Shown here: piece by piece, positions 6,343-34,591 of the stretch
How the letters are laid out: the number at the start of each line of letters is the position of its first letter
Numbering within the stretch: the first letter of the stretch is position 1
Program-made: the position numbers and the translations under genes
Notes under the pieces: generated by a model
Database searches by the model: none
What the model saw: the letters and a program-made list of their open reading frames with translations, nothing else
What the model was told of the DNA's origin: nothing
NCBI GenBank assembly: GCA_944990035.1
Contig: CALYLX010000124.1
Location: 124,001 to 188,000, forward strand
From: Clitopilus passeckerianus
Taxonomy: Eukaryota > Basidiomycota > Agaricomycetes > Agaricales > Entolomataceae
Direction: 5' to 3'
Length of the DNA: 64,000 bases

Positions 6343-8116
6343 TCATGAGCTGGACTTCCCGATGTCCACTACGTAGTTCTTGGCTCAATGAGTCCAATGT
6401 GTTATACACGGTTGTGAAACGTGTATTCCAGTTTCAATATGATACTATTATACCTTCGATTTGTTTATGAAGCTCTTAGGATTGTTCTAGCCCACGATTC
6501 CAAATATATCTACGACTGAGACAAGCTAAGACCGAGACAAGTATCTCGATTCGATACACTATCCAACCTAGGTGACGCAACTACCACACCTGTGCCTGGA
6601 GACTAGACAAACGAGGCTAGACAAAGATATCAGTCAGCAAAACCTGGTTATAAGGATTCATCGAACATCACTGACTTTTTGAAATGACAATTTAGTGCCC
6701 CTCGCTTCTGCAACTCCCCTCGCCTCTTCCAGATCAATTGCAATTCCCATATACGGTAGGGTATCGATTGTGACACTCCTCTAATCCGTCCTGCCAGGCC
6801 AATACCGTATGGGTAAGTATGGGCGAAGATATATCGGCTAGGCCACCATTCGATGATTAGTTCTCTTCCCCTAGAGCCCGTAGTAAGAGAGGCGGGTCCT
6901 TTCTGCCTTCGAGATATTCTAAATGTGAAAATAATCCTCCCAGAGACAAATGCACCCTCAGGGAATGCATAGAGTCAATGATCATGTCCATGGCAGTGTC
7001 GAGCATACCAGGGATGGCTCAGAACCGTTTGAGACACTCAAGACGGTGTTCGTGGTCCAATTACGATCTGTGAACTTGCATATTGTCACTTCTAAATCTC
7101 GTAGGCTTCTCGGAGATGGATTGAGGGAATCGACTAATCCTGCGTTTTCCGACCGCGTATATGTTTGATTTCGAATTCTTGGAGCCCGTCAGTCTGAGTA
7201 GGGTGCGAGAGGAGGTGTTGGAGATGAACGCCAAGGAGCGGAGATTTAGTTCTGAGGTAGCCTAGTTGAAGAGCCGTTGGTACGACACCGGTACCTCTGA
7301 TTCAAAGGAATCGCTGAGAATTCAGATTCGCGCAATTCGGCCAAACTGAAGACGAGCTCACTGTATTCCCCATTCCCGAATGGCTATAAGCACGTCTTCG
7401 AAGAAGACAGACTCAGAGAGCTCGTGTTCTGCTTCCCTTTTTTCTGGAATCTTGAAATCTTGCACATGCCCGAGATCCGCAAGCGCAGACCATACTAAAT
7501 CAGTTTTTGAACACGGAAAGCTACCAAAAAAATGGACTTCCTCCTACCTCTGACGCAGAGAGTCGACGAAGTTAATTCACATATGGTAAACTTGACACTT
7601 TAGGTATCTTAGAGATTTCAGGTATGAACAGTAAAGCGAGACGCTGGAGGTGTGCAAGTCCCAACGAACTCAGCTATGTGCAATCCATGAGAGGAAGCCG
7701 CCAAGAAAGAGCTCGAATCTGCCAGTCCGAGTCGCCATTCCTTGCGTCAATCGTTGTTCACATTATAATCGCCGACCGGCGGGATTGATCGCGGATACCT
7801 CCGGTACTGGTGAGGCCTAGGGCCTAGGCCCTCCACATCAAACTTCACACCTTTTAGACCATGGACTCCGTCATTGGACTCTGTTCTTCTCTGTGGCAGC
7901 CTGTCTCCTCTCGGATCCAGTTTCCATTCATGTGGCAACACAACCATGTAAAAATCTCGGTTTTTCCGCTCTGACGAAAGGAAATCTCACAACTACGGCC
8001 AAGAAGACACCTCCTTCTTGATACACCGGTGGCTCACATCGGACTGACCAACTATGGCCACTGTATTTTCGTTCGTTCCGGTCGCCAGGCTCGTCAGAAG
8101 ATGGCGTGATGCTTGC
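6343..8116. other. Intergenic, no supported gene
   Basis: Only short frames without recognisable domains. A frame at 6950-7168 and another at about 7162-7265 have plausible composition but no start/stop/splice chain I can defend. Confidence 0.5.
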
Positions 8117-8743
8117 ACTCCGGAGTGTGATGGGTGTTTCCCGAGGAAAAATGGGCGAGGAAAAGTTACTCGTTTTCTTGGGCACATTTTTATGTAGGAA
8201 AGATTATAGATGTATCTAGGAGAAAAGTTATGAAAAATTCTGAAATGTTTCTTACGGTATTTGGCTCAAGAAACTTGTATCGTTGTTCTTGTGGAAACCT
8301 TTCAGAGAAATTTTGAGTGTTTCTGGTCAAAAAAAGGTCAAGTTTTCTGTCGAATAATTTCAATGGAAACATACATCTTCGGACATTTCTAGGCAAAAAG
8401 AACTTATAATTTAGCCAATTTCTTGCATGTTTCCGGAGTAAACATGGTAAATTTCAAAAACATGTGTTGTTTTTACTATGGAAATACCCTAAGATGAATG
8501 TTTCTGATGAGATGATCAGACAAAAAACTTAACCTCTTTTGGATAGAAACATCCAAAACTTCTCTAAAGAGTTTCCGAGAGAAAAACATTCCACGTTTCT
8601 TGGGCGTCGTACCATAGGAAACATTTCAAAAGTTTTCATCATTTTCCTCCTGTTATCTTCTCTATGTAAAAATGTGCCCGAGATAAAGAAATAACTTTTC
8701 CTAGCCCGTTTCTCCTCAGGAAACATGGATCACACCCTGGAGT
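8117..8743. repeat. Large imperfect palindrome / fold-back element
   Basis: The segment is almost one long inverted repeat centred near 8430, with arms of about 300 nt. The left arm begins ACTCCGGAGTGTGAT at 8117. The right arm ends ATCACACCCTGGAGT at 8743. Inner blocks also match, such as GGCACATTTTTA at left against its complement at right. As a result, both strands show a similar frame starting MFPEEK. Arm similarity is roughly three quarters by eye. The flanks GTGATGC (8106) and GCATCAC (8754) extend the symmetry. It is AT-rich relative to its neighbours. It could be a fold-back transposon, a long-arm MITE or a hairpin small-RNA source. It ends 306 nt upstream of the UstYa-like ATG. Confidence 0.8.
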
Positions 8744-9049
8744 GTTGATCAGTGCATCACAAGGTGCCTATCCCCCGAAGACCGAAGTGAGGGCGCCCGA
8801 TACTGAGGACCCTTGACTGATAGAGCTCTGGTGATCGAGATCCCAACACGCTGACGAGATGACATTGAGTTAACCGGGTATTCAATTCAGCTCTTCATAT
8901 ATGGTTCCATTCCATGAGCGCCGGGTGAACGAGCCCACGACCGTCCACAGAGTTCCACAGGTAAACTGCTCCTTGTCCCGTCCCAAGTCGTTCCGTTGCT
9001 GATCAGCCCGGAATCAAGTCCCTCAGCCATTGAATCTCCCATATTGATA
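8744..9049. promoter_or_regulatory. Presumed promoter region of the UstYa-like gene
   Basis: About 300 nt between the palindrome and the UstYa-like ATG. I see no distinct binding site. Its role is inferred only from position. Confidence 0.3.
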
Positions 9050-10079
9050 ATGAGCAAGAGCCTCGAAGAATATATTCCTCTCGCGGCTGAGGATCCTTCG
9101 CAGACTCAAGATGAGAGCGACTATATTCGTAGGCGTAGCCCTTCAATGAGAGGTCGATACGGAGACAAGCTACCCTATCTGCTGGTCATTCTTCTCCAAT
9201 CCATCTGCCTCCTCGTCGTTTCTATCGCTTTTGTACGCAAGAGTGGAGATCACCCTCCAAATACGACGCCAGTTAGGACCTCTACGCCCAACCAAATATG
9301 GTGTAAGTCACAATTCCGACCCTTGTTCACCTCTCTATGAACGCTGATTATCTCCCAGCACCCGCTCAGGATATCATCGAGCACGAAGTCAAGGTTTTCA
9401 CTGGAGGCTTTGACAATCAGAAGACGATATACCAGGAAACCTCCGATGCCGCCGATAAGGCTTGGGAGGATCTGTACAACCGTAAGCTCTCTAGAAATGT
9501 CTTTGCGGTCAGCGAGCTCACTGTCTGATAGGTACCCTAATGAAAATAAACAAGAACGAGGCCTCACAACTTCCCAATAAGACATATCCTCTCAAAGACT
9601 CGCCCGGATACTACATTACCGAGCTCGATGTGTTCCACCAACTTCATTGTCTCGTGAGTTCCCCGACATTACTTATCTGCTATCCTGCTGATATAATGTT
9701 CGCAGAACAAGATCCGACAAGCATTGAACAAGGATAGGTACTGGGGCCATCTGAAAAACGCCGAAGAACATTTGGGAGACGACCATATCTCTCACTGCGT
9801 GGATTCAATTCGGCAGTCTCTCATGTACGTGATCGGTCTCTCCCCCTTCAGTTGTTTGTAAAAGTGACACTCTTGTATAGGTGCAATGCCGACATCTCGA
9901 CTATCCCATGGCAATGGCACGAACCATCCAAGTCCGTGAAGATTCGCCTCAATTATCCTCACCAGTGCATCAACTTCGAGAAACTCTGGGATTGGGTTTA
10001 CGAGAGGCATCTGGACGAGTACATTGACCCGAACACATATGTCGCGGATGAGCTTCCAGAACCTAAGATCGTGTATTGA
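9050..10079 (+). CDS. UstYa-like oxidase (DUF3328 family)
   Basis: Five exons (9050-9302, 9359-9481, 9532-9653, 9706-9824, 9881-10079) give 816 nt and a 271-residue protein in one frame. A cytosolic N-terminus precedes one membrane helix at about residues 41-61, which is the usual DUF3328 topology. Two HxxHC motifs are present, HQLHC and HISHC; these are the diagnostic copper-binding-type motifs of the family. A WPW-like stretch (STIPWQWHEP) and CINFEKLWDW follow, as in UstYa proteins. Known relatives cross-link or oxidise ribosomal peptides (ustiloxin, phomopsin, asperipin) in the secretory pathway. The next gene downstream, 626 nt away on the same strand, encodes a Kex2-type repeat precursor and is the obvious candidate substrate. 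An upstream TTG at 8996 was rejected in favour of this ATG. Confidence 0.9.
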
Positions 10080-10704
10080 TATTGTAGCTTACTCCATGTA
10101 TGAACGAGGCAATTAGAACCTGAATACCGGCATGAACCATGTGGACGAAGAGATCTGGAATGCACAGTTGAATACACGTGTGCCTAATTATAGATTTCAC
10201 CGCAAACAATCAGAGCGGGGTGGGATTACGATTACGCCAGGGTCGTATATCCCGAGATCCTCGGTTGGCAATGGCGAGAGGCATTGTTGAACATTGCGTG
10301 ATAGTACCGCCGGATCTTCAAGATAGGCCTGACCTGCCCGGATTTCAATGGGAAGGCTCGCCTAAAACCAACCTCCATTCTGTTGCGAATATAATTGGCG
10401 TCCATCTGACAGAGCAACAGCATGGTTCGCTAAGGCGCAGCCTCTCGTTGAAGTGCACCATACGGTGCTGACATCAAATCCGAATACATTCATTTGCGAG
10501 CGTGTCGGATATCCTGACTTCCTGGCATCCATGGTTCGGCCAGAATCGATGGACCGCTGCCACATATCATAGAAGCTCATAATGGCGACGTGATGGGCGG
10601 TTGAAGATCTGAATTGAGCGGACTGAGCATTGGGGTAGAAAAGGGCAACGTTGAAGCGTTTACATACCTTAATCCTGTTCACCCGTTGACAGATCAAACT
10701 CGCA
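10080..10704. promoter_or_regulatory. Spacer between oxidase and precursor genes
   Basis: No supported gene. It must hold the 3' end of the UstYa-like transcript and the promoter of the precursor gene. I see no clear TATA box or repeated operator-like element. Confidence 0.4.
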
Positions 10705-11145
10705 ATGAAATTCGCTGTTGCTCTCGTCGCCCTCGCTGCCGTTGTTGCTGCTCTTCCGGTCGAAGAGGTATGCAGATTTGCTTTGTTCTTAGCTTACGGG
10801 CTATCAGTTGACGTGGGTGCTTAGCGTGGCGATGCCGCAGTCTATGACGCCCATGCTGTCCCAGGCTCTTGGATCAAGAGGAAGGAGGCTGCAGAGGCCG
10901 ACGCTGTCCTGCAACGCGGAGTGTACTGGCCTACCAAGAGGAGCGAGGCCGCAGAGGCTGACACCTTCCTTCAACGTGGCATCTATTGGCCGACGAAGAG
11001 AAGCGAGGCCGCTGAAGCCGACACAGTCTTGCAGAGGGCCGGCTACTGGCCTAAGAGGAGTGAGGCTGCTGAAGCTGACACGTTTTTGCAGAGGGGTATC
11101 TACTGGCCTAAGAGGGAGGCAAGTGCTGAAGCGGACGGCGCTTGA
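10705..11145 (+). CDS. Secreted Kex2-processed repeat precursor (candidate dikaritin-type RiPP)
   Basis: Exon 1 (10705-10767) encodes the signal peptide, hydrophobic to about residue 17. After a 57-nt intron, exon 2 (10825-11145) encodes the repeats; total 127 residues. Four units follow one plan: an acidic EAAEAD spacer, then xxLQR, then a core and Lys-Arg. The cores are GVYWPT (53-58), GIYWPT (73-78), AGYWP (93-97) and GIYWP (112-116). Kex2-type sites lie at 39-40, 59-60, 79-80, 98-99 and 117-118. The Glu-Ala-rich spacers after KR resemble dipeptidyl-peptidase trimming substrates. Every core keeps Tyr-Trp-Pro, which gives aromatic side chains for UstYa-type cross-linking. A plain secreted repeat peptide without cyclisation remains possible. 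Confidence 0.88.
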
Positions 11146-28571: not shown

Positions 28572-30065
28572 CTACGAGACGTTAGGAGGGGAAATTATGG
28601 CAGGGACTTCAACTATTTTTAACCTTTCCGTTAGGCCCTCTGCCAGGCCCAATGATTTGACGCCCAAAGGCAGTAGCGACCTCGATACCACCGCAGAAAA
28701 CATTGGGGAAGCAATAAATCTCGACCTGAGCAACTCGCCTAGCGCCGAGGGTGATGGTGGGGACATATCCATGGGGTCTTCATTCGCAAATGTCAACTCC
28801 TCGAGACATGGGAGTGCATGTGCATGATCCCCAATAGTGAGCAATGAGCACAAGAAGTACCACCGTGTGACTGGTGAGCGCTCACTAATATTTAGGGATT
28901 GGAGGTGGGAAAGATGTTCCAGAAACGAGGCCAGGATTCCCCGGTCTGATATCACCACGTTCATTGTCGTGAGACGCTTCAGTCTACAGCACGATCGCTG
29001 GATGAAACTAACAAGGAATGATAGGTCCAGGCTATCTGCCCTATCCGCTTGGCAGTAGACTGTGAGCTCTGTTAAGCTAGGGACTTCCATAGAGCTGAGA
29101 ATGAACGTAGCGGGGATATGAAGGGACTTGAGCCGATGATGAACAAGTGGGTCTTCGACAATAGGGTAGGATATGCCGAGTTCCATCCGACAGCTCTCGA
29201 GCTTTCTCCCAACCCTCAGCAGGCTGGCCCAGTCACCTTGTACGCCGTCGTATTCTACCAGCTGAGAAAAGGGTAGGGGAATTTGATTGATTCGTTTAAA
29301 ACCCTTCATAGATGCATGTGTTAATGCAGGTGCAACCTTGAACATGTCGAAACATTGATCACCTCTTGAAGAGAAGGCTTTGTTCACAAGGATAGAGATA
29401 CGCTCAAGGAGAGGCAGCTTCCCAGCAATACAAGTCAGCTGTGAGAGAAATGCCACGGAAGGGAATTTGAAGTGGACATCTCTCCATCGTGGCGAGTTTG
29501 CAGCCAAGAGTGGAAGTAGATTCTTCATAGCTTGTATAAGCCCCACGCCGTCGGCCGGGGCGAAGTATATGGTCAAAGGAAGGGGTTTGGAGCGCAAAAG
29601 TGCCAGGCGGAGCATTGGTTTAGTCGGAAGGATGGTATAGCCACCCTGGGAACCCCAAGGGCGTTGGATAATGATGTTACACCACAGGCTTTTGCGTGCC
29701 AATGCTATCGATCTCCATCGACGATTGACCTTCCCCAGCGCCCAAGGCGCCTGGTGTGGGTCCAAGGTATTAATATGTATATATGGCTCTCTTTCAACAC
29801 AAAATGCAAATATTGATTCGAGAACCTCATTCGGTACGGTGTCGAATGTTGCCGGAGTATCACTTTCGCTCTGGGCCTCGGCGGTGTCCATTGCGGGAAT
29901 TATGAGTGAGGATTGTTCCGAGTCGCTATCGCCCAAGTCCAGGAAAGACAAGGAATCGAGAGTATGAGGTCCTTCTGTGGACATGTGGAGGTTCCAGGTG
30001 ATGGTTGTGCGGAAAGGTGTGCAGACGTGCTCGGTGCCCATTTCGGCGGACTGACAAATGGTCAC
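28572..30065 (-). CDS. F-box protein, tandem copy A
   Basis: One uninterrupted frame of 497 residues. The F-box is at about residues 74-130: FDTVPNEVLESIFAFCVE, then APWALGKVNRRWRSIALARK and LWCNI. Downstream is LRR-like sequence (LTELTVYCQADRADSLDLSF, HLSHLQSLNISE). It is closely similar throughout to copy B at 30520. F-box proteins act as substrate adaptors of SCF ubiquitin ligases; the target is unknown. The Met at about residue 28 (MSTEGPHTLDS) is an alternative start. A MITE-like element sits right after the stop, so its 3' UTR probably differs from that of copy B. Confidence 0.85.
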   Translation of the reverse strand: MTICQSAEMGTEHVCTPFRTTITWNLHMSTEGPHTLDSLSFLDLGDSDSEQSSLIIPAMDTAEAQSESDTPATFDTVPNEVLESIFAFCVEREPYIHINTLDPHQAPWALGKVNRRWRSIALARKSLWCNIIIQRPWGSQGGYTILPTKPMLRLALLRSKPLPLTIYFAPADGVGLIQAMKNLLPLLAANSPRWRDVHFKFPSVAFLSQLTCIAGKLPLLERISILVNKAFSSRGDQCFDMFKVAPALTHASMKGFKRINQIPLPFSQLVEYDGVQGDWASLLRVGRKLESCRMELGISYPIVEDPLVHHRLKSLHIPATFILSSMEVPSLTELTVYCQADRADSLDLSFLVSFIQRSCCRLKRLTTMNVVISDRGILASFLEHLSHLQSLNISERSPVTRWYFLCSLLTIGDHAHALPCLEELTFANEDPMDMSPPSPSALGELLRSRFIASPMFSAVVSRSLLPLGVKSLGLAEGLTERLKIVEVPAIISPPNVS

Positions 30066-30519
30066 GGGCGTTTACTTCGTCATTGACCCTCAGTTTTTTG
30101 AGAGTGACATCTCCATATGTCGAGTTGACCGTTGAAGTCTAGTGGATTCGTATGTACGACGGTGGCGGCTTCATTCAGTTGTCCCCAAGAGAAACAGAAG
30201 GGAGTTTCAGGGTCCGGATCCAGGGATTAAGCGCTGGAGTGCTCTTGAAGTCCTCGTGCAGACCATGCTGAACCAGCGAGTACGTAGTGGCTATACATTC
30301 AACGGCGAGGCAGCGTGGTGCGCCGAGTATCTTACTGACAAAATTGTGGCTCAAAGCGATCTTCAAGGTGGATCAGGGCAGAAAAGTCGAAATATGAACG
30401 GACCACTGATGCCGTTGACGTATTTGGTGCGAAGAAAAACAGAGTAAGTTGATGTGATATGTTCCAACGAAGTTAGATTTCATTTCTCAAGTACGAATGT
30501 GATCCCTGACGCTAGATAG
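30066..30519. other. Spacer between the F-box pair
   Basis: It holds the promoter of copy A and the 3' flank of copy B. The 3' flank is similar to 27640-27860, the 3' flank of copy A, so the duplicated unit included flanking DNA. Confidence 0.5.
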
Positions 30520-32238
30520 CTACGAAGCGTAAGTGGTAGAATCCGTAAGAGATGGGGATTCGTCTATTGATAACCTTTCAACCAGGCCCTCCTCAAGATC
30601 CAATGATCTGACGCCTAAAGGCAGAAGCGACCTGAATATTAATGCAACAAACGTTGGGGAAGCGTTGAATCTCGACTTGAGCATCTGGCCTAAAGCTGAA
30701 GGCGATGGTGGGTTACACATGCTATATACGGGAATGTTTGCAAATGTCAACTTCTCGAGACAGGGGACTAGGGGTGCCACATTACTCTCAATCGTGAGTA
30801 ATGTGCACAGGAAGTACCATCGAGTTACGGCGTATGTCTCCTCAAGTCTGAGGAATTGGAGGTGAGGGAGATGTTCGAGCAATGTGGTTAATGTTTCTTG
30901 ATCTCCGATATGCATGTTCCGCATGTCGAGACGCTTCAACCGACAGCACGATCTCTGGATGAATGAAATAAGGGTTACTAGATCCCGGCTATGCATCATA
31001 TCCTCACGGGAATAGATAGTGAGGTCTGTCAGGCTAGGAACCTCGATGGAGTGGAGGATACACGCAGCAGGGATATGAAGAGACTTGAGCCTATGGTGGA
31101 CGATTGGGGGATAGGCGGTGATGTCGGACGAGCCGAATTCGATGAGACAGCTCTCGAGGTTTCTCCCAGCCTTCAGCAGGTCGGCCCAGTCTTCTCTTGC
31201 TCCATTGTATTCAATCAGCTGTGAGAAGGGGAGAGGGAGCTGGTCAACACGTTTAATGCCCCTCGTAGTTGCGTGTGTCAACGCAGGTGCGACCTCGAAC
31301 ATGCGGAAGGTTTGTTGATCGCCTGTGGGGATCAAGCCTCTGTTCACATGAATGGAAATCCGCTCGAGCAGAGGGAGCTTCCCAGAGATACGCGTCAGCG
31401 CGCTGAGGAATGAAATGTGAGGGAGCTCAAGGTGAACATCTTTCCACCGTGGCGAGCAGGAAGCCAAGGGTAGAAGCAGATTCTTCATGGCTTGCACGAG
31501 CATCACGTTATCGCCTGGGGCGAGGTATATGGTCAAGGGGAGGGGTCTAGATCGTGAAAGTAGCAGGCGGAGCATGGATTTAGTAGGCAGGAAGGTGAAA
31601 CCACGGAAACCCCAAGGCCGTTGGAAAACGATGTTACACCACAGGTTTTTGCGGGTCAGTGCGATCGACCTCCATCGACGATTGACCTTCGACAGGGACC
31701 AAGGCGCCTTGTATGGGTCCAAGGTATTCATAGGCTTGTCGTGCTCTCTTACAACACAGAAGGCAAATATCGATTCGAGAACCTCATTTGGTATGGATTC
31801 AAATGATACGTCAGTTCCGCTGTGGTCATCGGTGTCCATGATCCGAGGCTGTTCTGGATCATTCTTATTTGAGCCAAAGAATGACTCGTAGCAGAATGAT
31901 GGGGCCTCTACTTTGGGCGTATTAGGGGTTTGAGTGCTGGCTGGGCGGAAAGGTGTCCGATTGCACTCAGCGTCATTTAGTCGGACCGTCAAACTAGTCC
32001 ACGGGCGCTTTAACTTTTTCATTAGCCCTGAGCCGGTCCCTTTGAGCCCCATGTTAGTTGCGGTGTCAGAACTTCTCAGACGAATGTGTGTTAGATGCAC
32101 GAGTTGCCTGTATACCGTCGGCGCTGGTGGTGGTGGCCACTGCAAAGTTACAGAGAATGACAGAGATAGTGGCGGTGTAGAGATCACGAGCTCAACGCGT
32201 TGTTTGGCTTTGTCCGAATCGCCAAACACAGAAGCCAT
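30520..32238 (-). CDS. F-box protein, tandem copy B
   Basis: Single frame of 572 residues. The F-box region FESIPNEVLESIFAFCVV is followed by APWSLSKVNRRWRSIALTRK and LWCNIVFQRPWG. LRR-like repeats follow (VPSLTDLTIYSRED, LLEHLPHLQFLRLEE). It matches copy A along its whole length, including the stop context. The N-terminal 60 residues before MGLKGTGSGLMKKLKRPW look like translated leader, so the Met at 32052 may be the true start. Confidence 0.85.
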   Translation of the reverse strand: MASVFGDSDKAKQRVELVISTPPLSLSFSVTLQWPPPPAPTVYRQLVHLTHIRLRSSDTATNMGLKGTGSGLMKKLKRPWTSLTVRLNDAECNRTPFRPASTQTPNTPKVEAPSFCYESFFGSNKNDPEQPRIMDTDDHSGTDVSFESIPNEVLESIFAFCVVREHDKPMNTLDPYKAPWSLSKVNRRWRSIALTRKNLWCNIVFQRPWGFRGFTFLPTKSMLRLLLSRSRPLPLTIYLAPGDNVMLVQAMKNLLLPLASCSPRWKDVHLELPHISFLSALTRISGKLPLLERISIHVNRGLIPTGDQQTFRMFEVAPALTHATTRGIKRVDQLPLPFSQLIEYNGAREDWADLLKAGRNLESCLIEFGSSDITAYPPIVHHRLKSLHIPAACILHSIEVPSLTDLTIYSREDMMHSRDLVTLISFIQRSCCRLKRLDMRNMHIGDQETLTTLLEHLPHLQFLRLEETYAVTRWYFLCTLLTIESNVAPLVPCLEKLTFANIPVYSMCNPPSPSALGQMLKSRFNASPTFVALIFRSLLPLGVRSLDLEEGLVERLSIDESPSLTDSTTYAS

Positions 32239-32527
32239 ACACGGTTCGCTTTAGCCACCAACTTGCAGGCTCGTTGCTCTTAACGTTCATCTTTGAGGCC
32301 CAAAAGGCCTATCATAAACTACGGGGCTTCTCGGTTATCTCTATGGGAAAGATCCCTTCATAGGAAGCCGGAATTTATAGAGTTAACCCAGTAGCTTTTC
32401 TCGAGGAGTCGTCAATCCCGCGTCTACAACGTTTGGTGAGTCCTGGACTTCATATTTCCAATCCCTTAACAAACGTTTCTTTTAGGGAAATACACGTCCT
32501 TGAATATAGACTATCTAAAACAGTGCG

Positions 32528-34591
32528 ATGGTCACGCCTGTTGTGTATCGGTCCTCTTCCGCTTCAAATATCCCAACCCTTTCACCCAAATCTCACCGGG
32601 TGCTCCTGATCCCGGAACTCCTATCTCTCATATTCTCCAACCTCGACCGGAAGACAAATGCTACAAACACCCAAATTTGTAAGGTCTGGTCAGAAATTGC
32701 CCTGGATGTTCTTTGGAAGAAGGTCGACAACCTTTACCGCCTGTTTCGTATTCTAGCGCCGATGTCCCGAGACGTAGAGACTGGCGAATGGGTATGTAAC
32801 CATTTTTCAGCCCCCCAAGTTTTTAAAATACTAATCTCCAATTTTCAACAGGCTTTTACCCGACTTCCAGATGCTTCCGACTGGCATCGTTTCGCACCAT
32901 ACCGGCGACGTGTCAGGCACCTCATCTATTCCACTCTCCCCAGCTCGCCTCACTGGCAACGCAAGCATCGAGTGCACCATACTGTCTTTGATGATATTGC
33001 ACGTACCAGGACCTCCTACGAAATCCTGCCCAACACACATACCCTTGAATGGTCTGCTACTCTATCCCTGAGCGTGCTGTTCATGCATGCTAACATCAAG
33101 AAGTTCTACTGCTTCCTACCCCCTCCTCTGAGCGAGAAAAGCCCAGAACCTTTCTTCTTGGACATCAAGGAGAGAATGACGGGTCTCGTGCATCTCGACC
33201 TTGGCATGGAGCTGAGCGTCAAGGAAATCGAGAGGGAGATGGTCGACTTACTATCCACCCTCACGACGCTCAGGCGGATCACATTCCCGAGGTTTACTAT
33301 GACCACGGCAATAGCCGAGGCACTTTCCCGGCTACCCAACCTGGAAGTCGTCGAATTCCAATACGACGAACGACAAGGGAAAGGCGACTCCAAGGACGTC
33401 GTGCCCTTCCAACCGGCACTTGACCATGGGGCATTCCCTTCTTTATGGGACCTTGGGGCCACCATTACCGTCGGTGATGCAGCAGCATTCTTGGACTCGA
33501 CATTTGCTCCGACGAACCTTACATCCCTCTTCATTGATTCACAGCTGGTCGAATCACCGGAATCCATCTTCGAGCTTTTTGAAGTGTTGGCGGACAACTG
33601 TCAGCTGCTACAAGCATTGGCGGTCATGACGCGTGTGGCGGCCTCCTCACAGGGTGTGTTGATGACCAGCACGAACGACTATGGAGAAGAGGTCGTAGAC
33701 GGGGAGCACCAAGTCCAGCCAGACAAGTGTCTGACATACGACTCCTTCCAGCCCCTGCTTAAGCTCCCAAAGCTAGTCTCTTTCGAGCTCGTCCATCACT
33801 ACCCTGTTCTCATCACCCACGAAGAGATCGAGACCTTGGCTCTGGAATGGACCAACCTCGAGGTGTTGATACTCAACACCGAGCCTGCGTACATCAACCA
33901 CGCTAGCCAGCTCACCCTACGTTCTCTCATTCCGTTTGCCCAGCATTGCAAGAATCTGCGAATGCTAGGTCTCTTCTTGGACGCCATGGATGACATCCCA
34001 CCCTCCCTCAGGCAAGACGAAGAAGCCACCGAAGAAGGGTACCAATACCCTATCTTCCAGAGCCTGAAGCGGCTTTCGTTCGGCGTTTCAAGAATGGATA
34101 GAGACAAGCTCGAAGATGTTGCTCTGTTCCTCTCCCAGGTCCTTCCTATCGGATGCGTTCTCGACTCCGGCATAACCTGGGAGACCTCCACCACCTCGTC
34201 GCTCTCCCCCTCCTCCCCAGCGACCTCCATTTCTATGTCAACCGACCCCTCCCAGCTCCTCACCACGGACTCGCTCTTCTCTCGTCCTATCCACCCTTTC
34301 ATCTTATCCGAGATTGAAACCAGATGTGCGATGTGGTCGAAAGTTGGGGAGATGCTCCCTCTACTGATCAAGCTTAGAAACGACGAGAGGACGAGAGGGA
34401 AGAAGCTGAGAGGCGAGATGGAGGAGTTGAGGATGAGGTGTGGGGTGCTGATGGATAGGGAGAGGGTTAGCGGGATTGTTACGAGGAGAGATGAGGAAGA
34501 GGTGGAGAGGTTGTTGCTGGAGGGTGGGAATGCCAATGCTAATGGAGGGAGCAAATTCTCGATATTTAGGCTGTTGCCGTTCAGCTTCTGA
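32528..34591 (+). CDS. F-box protein with C-terminal coiled coil
   Basis: The F-box lies near the N-terminus: LIPELLSLIFSNLDRKTNAT, then CKVWSEIALDVLW. A 60-nt intron at 32792-32851 (GTATGT...CAACAG) is very likely. Its removal joins GEW to AFTRLPDASDWHRFAPYRRR, and the frame stays open either way because its length is a multiple of three. The middle is LRR-like (LVHLDLGMELSVK, LPNLEVVEFQYDERQ). The C-terminus is charged and helical (RGKKLRGEMEELRMRCGVLM), probably a short coiled coil. This is not a close paralogue of the other F-box genes here. Likely an SCF substrate adaptor. Confidence 0.85.
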   Translation: MVTPVVYRSSSASNIPTLSPKSHRVLLIPELLSLIFSNLDRKTNATNTQICKVWSEIALDVLWKKVDNLYRLFRILAPMSRDVETGEWVCNHFSAPQVFKILISNFQQAFTRLPDASDWHRFAPYRRRVRHLIYSTLPSSPHWQRKHRVHHTVFDDIARTRTSYEILPNTHTLEWSATLSLSVLFMHANIKKFYCFLPPPLSEKSPEPFFLDIKERMTGLVHLDLGMELSVKEIEREMVDLLSTLTTLRRITFPRFTMTTAIAEALSRLPNLEVVEFQYDERQGKGDSKDVVPFQPALDHGAFPSLWDLGATITVGDAAAFLDSTFAPTNLTSLFIDSQLVESPESIFELFEVLADNCQLLQALAVMTRVAASSQGVLMTSTNDYGEEVVDGEHQVQPDKCLTYDSFQPLLKLPKLVSFELVHHYPVLITHEEIETLALEWTNLEVLILNTEPAYINHASQLTLRSLIPFAQHCKNLRMLGLFLDAMDDIPPSLRQDEEATEEGYQYPIFQSLKRLSFGVSRMDRDKLEDVALFLSQVLPIGCVLDSGITWETSTTSSLSPSSPATSISMSTDPSQLLTTDSLFSRPIHPFILSEIETRCAMWSKVGEMLPLLIKLRNDERTRGKKLRGEMEELRMRCGVLMDRERVSGIVTRRDEEEVERLLLEGGNANANGGSKFSIFRLLPFSF

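Follow-up and report, generated by a model that had tools for sequence, protein, structure and literature searches.

The occurrence in Clitopilus passeckerianus of a UstYa-like gene followed, on the same strand, by a Kex2-type repeat precursor gene (positions 9050 to 11145 of the window, i.e., the whole 64,000-nucleotide stretch analyzed) raises the question of whether the two genes jointly specify a modified peptide and, if so, which residue of the peptide core is the target of the enzyme. It is considered likely, with a probability of about 0.6, that this locus represents a RiPP unit of two genes that falls within the ust-RiPS/dikaritin kind and whose UstYa modifies tryptophan-containing cores, and that it belongs to a set of such pairs which have this tryptophan in common.

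The UstYa gene and its neighboring precursor

The UstYa/DUF3328 gene extends from its start codon at 9050 to its stop at 10079 of the forward strand and comprises five exons deduced from GT-AG borders (9050-9302, 9359-9481, 9532-9653, 9706-9824, and 9881-10079). Its 271-residue product matches PF11807 across residues 43 to 247 in a Pfam profile search (E 8.1e-49) and carries the HxxHC motif of DUF3328/UstYa proteins at two positions, as HQLHC (9636 to 9650; H161, H164, and C165) and HISHC (9784 to 9798; H193, H196, and C197). These residues, as well as H233 and C235 of a third conserved site, PHQC (9957 to 9968), are invariant in an alignment of 44 sequences consisting of the window protein and 43 relatives. 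The identification of the gene in the earlier note as UstYa-like, with both HxxHC motifs, was upheld, and the coordinates which it had assigned to both window genes proved correct to within a few bases. Near-full-length named relatives with 44 to 46% identity are encoded by Cyathus striatus, Phlegmacium glaucopus, Gymnopilus junonius, and Guyanagaster necrorhizus; relatives of the UstYa protein point to an agaricomycete host.

The reading frame is also open in the allele on contig C26, where all splice-border bases (20 of 20) are identical to those of the window locus. The two haplotypes differ immediately upstream in a further respect, as a foldback element of ~630 bp (8116-8745), located ~300 bp ahead of the UstYa start codon and bearing end repeats that are 80% complementary over 60 nt, is missing from the C26 haplotype; seven further near-full-length copies of this element are present in the genome, one of which is 99% identical.

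The precursor gene begins ~625-629 bp downstream of UstYa in tandem orientation (10705 to 11145, forward strand; ATG at 10705) and encodes 127 residues from two exons, 10705-10767 and 10825-11145, which are separated by a GT-AG intron. Exon 1 encodes the hydrophobic N terminus MKFAVALVALAAVVAALPVEE, a putative signal peptide, while the N-terminal stretch MKFAVALVALAAVVAALP is hydrophobic according to a hydropathy rule used as the sole criterion. Exon 2 encodes four units conforming to the consensus EAAEADxxLQR[GA]xYWP(T)KR, namely, KEAAEADAVLQR-GVYWPT-KR (unit 1, 10882 to 10941), SEAAEADTFLQR-GIYWPT-KR (unit 2, 10942 to 11001), SEAAEADTVLQR-AGYWP-KR (unit 3, 11002 to 11058), and SEAAEADTFLQR-GIYWP-KR (unit 4, 11059 to 11115). 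While these four units read as the earlier note had described them, its inventory overlooked a preceding Kex2-bounded unit 0, RGDAAVYDAHAVPGSWI-KR (10825 to 10881), which ends in AVPGSWI-KR and thus contains tryptophan, though not YWP. When the 64-kb window was searched with a detector of secreted repeat precursors, which looks for a hydrophobic start, an optional intron, and repeated segments between dibasic sites, this gene was the single one to attain a score of ≥40. Sub-cut-off Pfam matches of its product to Tautomerase-like, MDY2_C, and AAA_lid_8 were dismissed as chance. The locus presents two of the features that typify dikaritin/ust-RiPS systems, i.e., repeated cores with Kex2 sites between them and an adjacent DUF3328/UstYa gene.

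Across the six pairwise comparisons of units 1 to 4, synonymous codon differences outnumber non-synonymous ones by 47 to 15. None of the Y, W, P, L, Q, K, or Arg residues (the two Arg positions included) changes between the units, although codon drift is seen at Y, P, L, Q, and the two Arg positions; the constancy of the Arg in LQR despite such drift fits a possible role of this residue in cleavage or recognition. Between the haplotypes, in which the precursor frame and its splice borders are unchanged, one core varies (GVYWPT versus GGYWPT). The pN and pS values of 0.020 and 0.191 for the precursor and 0.017 and 0.221 for UstYa indicate that, as judged from these two haplotypes, both genes are under purifying selection.

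Recurrence of UstYa-precursor pairs in the genome

The assembly (64.8 Mb in 160 contigs) contains many loci as two haplotypes and yielded 68 exon-wise matches to PF11807. For distance counts, UstYa matches with E<=0.001 from the genome searches were merged by hand into 34 intervals. Used as a query, exon 2 of the window precursor retrieved its allele, a diverged copy on C141/C79 (here termed P2), and a copy on C93/C142 (P3), while application of the detector to UstYa flanks revealed further precursors adjoining UstYa genes at C142:46488, C142:88302, C142:188188, and C74:295481. The exon 2 search and whole-genome searches with the precursors at C142:46488, C142:88302, and C142:188188 together defined 20 precursor places, both haplotypes being counted. 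In arriving at this figure, exon fragments and reverse-strand low-complexity rows were merged into the overlapping precursor loci, C156:638001 (E 0.22, three stops) was left out, and C83:193598 (E 0.0048) was counted as an unlinked place.

The expected co-occurrence of the two genes, assessed inside the source genome alone, was found to recur: 13 of the 20 places have a UstYa match at a distance of up to 2 kb, whereas sequence up to 3 kb from such a match makes up only 0.37% of the genome. Ten of the 13 linked places are divergent with respect to UstYa and one (C93:97855) is convergent, the window locus and its allele being tandem; at C93:87125, the orientation was set by the fuller UstYa gene C93:89505, 1580 bp away, because the closest match, at 859 bp, is fragmentary. 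The 13 places do not represent independent events, as many are alleles, paralogues, or local duplicates. The precursor-linked UstYa genes nonetheless occupy three places in a rough paralogue tree, whose branch lengths are unreliable because it was built from exon blocks anchored on the query, some of which read into introns. As an observation in its own right, UstYa genes (at least seven) and precursor genes with tryptophan cores (at least four) occur together in the stretch of about 35-202 kb on C142 and C93, arranged mostly as divergent pairs.

This recurrence bears directly on the suggestion that the window genes are unrelated and stand side by side by chance. Such a suggestion could draw on the several UstYa genes that lack a precursor and the several precursors that lack a UstYa gene; the same neighborhood, however, reappears on C123/C26 (C123 carrying the window), C142/C93, C74, and C141 when the queries are precursors alone, and mere adjacency is accordingly regarded as most improbable.

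The survey of flanks covered 166,237 bases surrounding UstYa and precursor genes, mostly of one haplotype and typically 1.5 to 4 kb per side, leaving out the flanks of C94:74988, C4, and C116. In three shuffles of these 166 kb, nothing was detected at a score of >=60, a control level below which the P2 copy (48 and 43 in its two haplotypes) and the single-core gene C93:97855 fall. No precursor reached a score of >=60 in the ~40 kb surrounding the UstYa genes of a different clade (C66, C67, C69, C139, C59, C114, and C8). Members of this distant second clade are tightly clustered in groups of two to five matches, as at C66:1228670-1234328 and also on C67, C69, C139, and C59. Nor was a precursor detected near four genes of the window clade, C142:67044, C142:200911, C142:761283, and C142:815861. 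The second of these (C142:200911-201951) is placed by the rough tree nearest to the window UstYa among the paralogues, and its surroundings (C142:196400-204900) were devoid of a detectable precursor; on that haplotype, HQLHG replaces HQLHC.

The seven unlinked places, which lack a UstYa match up to a distance of 2 kb, are P2 in its two haplotypes, C59, C139, C82, and two on C83. P2 (C141:284833-288033 and C79:303299-306499) appears to have arisen by partial duplication of the window locus: DNA upstream of its precursor aligns to the 3' end of UstYa (window positions 9972-10008, 89% over 37 bp, followed by shorter pieces), and the layout of its repeats is alike, including a counterpart of unit 0 that reads AVPGNWI-RR, while one of its three units (GVWV) lacks both Tyr and Pro. 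The genome-wide UstYa searches gave no match closer than 267 kb on that contig. The P2 precursor is open in both haplotypes, which differ at seven synonymous positions and one non-synonymous position. Its peptides may either undergo modification by a different UstYa acting in trans or function without modification. Intergenic DNA is present a second time downstream of the P2 precursor.

P2, being constrained although its UstYa was lost, provides the best evidence in this genome that the precursors might instead yield linear, unmodified, Trp-containing signaling or defense peptides, for which a UstYa neighbor would be optional or would serve another substrate. The presence of tryptophan-core precursors without UstYa linkage in the same genome points in the same direction, as do the acidic, Ala-rich spacers, which are similar to those of alpha-factor, and the Trp-ended linear peptides from STE13-type KEPs reported for Coprinopsis expression, Pleurotus, and Lentinula (PMC9769878). 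Against this reading stand the proximity of UstYa matches to most precursor places and the similar constraint on the window UstYa and its precursor, as well as a published survey in which 98.6% of 216 pheromone-type KEPs were without a DUF3328 neighbor (PMC7329392); we consider it rather unlikely, and the two-gene modification unit is retained as the preferred interpretation.

Tryptophan and tyrosine in the precursor cores

The linked precursors share their layout and their acidic, Ala-rich spacers, while their cores are diverse. Besides GxYWP(T), these cores include YNWGA, YTNWST, and YHWGL (HNWGL in the other haplotype), NGGWYYG, IGGWAPG, PAGWSIGPP and DGWDFLPS, FFYNWGEE, and HGWANP, the only core of the C93:97855 gene. 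Among the 40 Kex2-delimited segments with >=10 residues in eight linked precursors (including two alleles of others), 37 contain Trp, and two of the remaining three segments are not repeat units. Counted by eye, the repeat units number 38, and the only one that lacks Trp is the last of C142:188188, which reads YDRG. Tyr is missing from ten of the 38, i.e., five GGWAPG units, three units of C74, and two HNWG units.

The assertion that Tyr-Trp is conserved in every core is accurate for the window, where Y-W-P is present in all four repeat units on both haplotypes, but does not extend to a general rule: with ten of the 38 linked units lacking Tyr and 37 containing Trp, the Tyr-Trp pairing is a local feature. 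The same figures weigh against a Tyr-directed dikaritin pathway, in which a cyclic product would arise from the YWP cores through a Tyr-Trp or Tyr-ether cross-link. The constancy of Y-W-P at the window locus would suit such a pathway, as would the linkage of known ust-RiPS products through Tyr (PMC7329392), while a direct bond between adjacent Tyr and Trp residues would presumably need a very small ring; on balance, this route appears quite unlikely. Modification centered on Trp is, as a hypothesis derived from these core sequences, a better general one than the Tyr-Trp rule. Tryptophan is not specific to UstYa linkage, as it is also found in four of five segments of the unlinked C59 precursor and in all four segments of that on C139, and its conservation does not by itself prove that UstYa acts upon it, given that these unlinked precursors carry it too. 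The latter two, which are of the FFYNWGEQ repeat type (C59:373538 and C139:261855), are located 131 and 107 kb, respectively, from the closest UstYa match.

Relation to known systems and proposed biosynthesis

In common with the dikaritins or ust-RiPS of Ascomycota, the window pair couples a predicted secreted Kex2-repeat precursor to an adjacent DUF3328/UstYa gene, the single DUF3328 gene being a feature also of the asperipin-2a system (PMC7329392). The further claim that known UstY-dependent peptides, ustiloxin and phomopsin included, derive from exactly this gene pair is not borne out, as those two need a tyrosinase as well and involve two and five DUF3328 genes, respectively, and only asperipin-2a has one (PMC7329392). 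The window pair differs from the dikaritins in its basidiomycete host, in the family-wide presence of Trp, and in its core, [GA]xYWP(T), which departs from the YxI[GP] core of the ustiloxin/phomopsin type (PMC7329392). It also differs in the lack of a tyrosinase gene like that of ustiloxin/phomopsin-type clusters: an exon-wise six-frame search for PF00264, which a very divergent gene could escape, gave 12 matches in the genome and none on contig C123.

Pairs of this general kind have been encountered in bioinformatic surveys. Among basidiomycete KEPs, 103 of 1680 have a DUF3328 neighbor (Umemura 2020, PMC7329392), and for homologues of putative basidiomycete pheromones the proportion is 17 of 76 (PMC7329392). 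DUF3328 genes are most frequent at the position adjoining KEP genes (PMC7329392), a pattern that accords with a UstYa-precursor unit. In the relevant passages of that survey, basidiomycete KEP-DUF3328 genes are counted, with neither a product nor a pairing architecture described. Its type P-3 KEPs, from Galerina, Psilocybe, Coprinellus, Fonsecaea, and Cladophialophora, have W accompanied by P and a DUF3328 neighbor in four of seven cases (PMC7329392); compared by description, P-3 and the window pair have in common a KEP with DUF3328, repeats in which Trp is joined by Pro, and hosts that include Agaricales, and they are probably of the same kind. Dikaritins are listed among ascomycete RiPPs, and 16 UstYa-like genes have been reported in Pleurotus (PMC9233826, PMC8893723). 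The titles, abstract openings, and passages of the open-access literature considered here yielded no characterized product of a basidiomycete UstYa. While the KEP-UstYa kind is thus known from surveys, its Trp-centered, mostly divergent two-gene organization within one basidiomycete is new, and UstYa-precursor pairs probably represent a family of modified fungal peptides that has received little study. Searches of a protein database for precursor orthologues retrieved none at E<=1 among 2419 candidates for the window precursor and none at E<=10 among the 7997 candidates that had the most words in common with an alignment of five precursors, results which constitute weak evidence of absence since short repeat proteins are poor queries.

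Linear KEP peptides offer a second point of comparison. The mushroom STE13-signature peptides MSGVAADW and QYKAPSW derive from precursors which, like that of the window, possess a signal peptide (putative in the window precursor), Kex2 sites, XA-pair spacers, and a core Trp, but these peptides were detected in linear or minimally modified form, as were the agaricomycete KEP peptides detected so far, and UstY/DUF3328 is absent from the main text of the report (PMC9769878). STE13-signature KEPs are known to occur in Basidiomycota (PMC6339444). In the window precursor, XA/XP pairs are present in the spacers EAAEAD and DAHAVP, with no clean run from the cut site. Ascomycete alpha-factor precursors likewise combine Kex2 repeats with EA-rich spacers; the window core is, by eye, unrelated to that of alpha-factor, and, in contrast to alpha-factor-type linear KEPs, which almost never have a DUF3328 neighbor, the precursor lies some 625-629 bp from UstYa. 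Basidiomycete pheromones are of the a-type (PMC6339444).

In the proposed pathway, the precursor would enter the secretory pathway and be cleaved by kexin after each Lys-Arg, with a possible further cut by an endoprotease behind the LQR arginine. The peptide ends would be trimmed by exopeptidases, and membrane-anchored UstYa is predicted to modify the short Trp cores oxidatively before or during their release. The window pair would accordingly be one member of a locally expanded, diversifying UstYa-precursor set in which the core residue held in common is Trp and not Tyr. The genome contains two matches to the kexin-type P-domain, both on C125, and matches to DPPIV_N (STE13 family); a genome search for an STE2-type receptor gave no match, and none of the control genomes gave one either.

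A broader proposal, advanced tentatively and regarded as somewhat improbable, is that basidiomycetes possess their own Trp-directed UstYa branch, organized as compact, usually divergent two-gene units in which UstYa would oxidize or cross-link through the conserved Trp while the cores otherwise vary freely, with the pairs diversifying by duplication as a peptide library. Cyclization in basidiomycetes has been suggested either to hardly occur or to use another motif (Umemura 2020, PMC7329392). A concrete set of pairs with Trp, and not Tyr, in common makes this question directly testable, only two small genes being involved. Should Trp prove to be the target, Basidiomycota would possess a new class of oxidative peptide chemistry; if the peptides are linear, the role of the paired UstYa genes needs to be rethought.

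As regards the remaining window genes, no tailoring-type enzyme was recognized among the ten larger ORFs scanned with Pfam, which comprise three F-box-like genes (two of them below the family cut-off), one GH16 gene, one DUF7928 gene, and five genes without a match; together with the lack of a PF00264 match on C123, this agrees with the earlier view of a two-gene system without tyrosinase. The three F-box-like genes are large and form a row at 28575-34588, the first two of which lie on one strand and are similar by eye.
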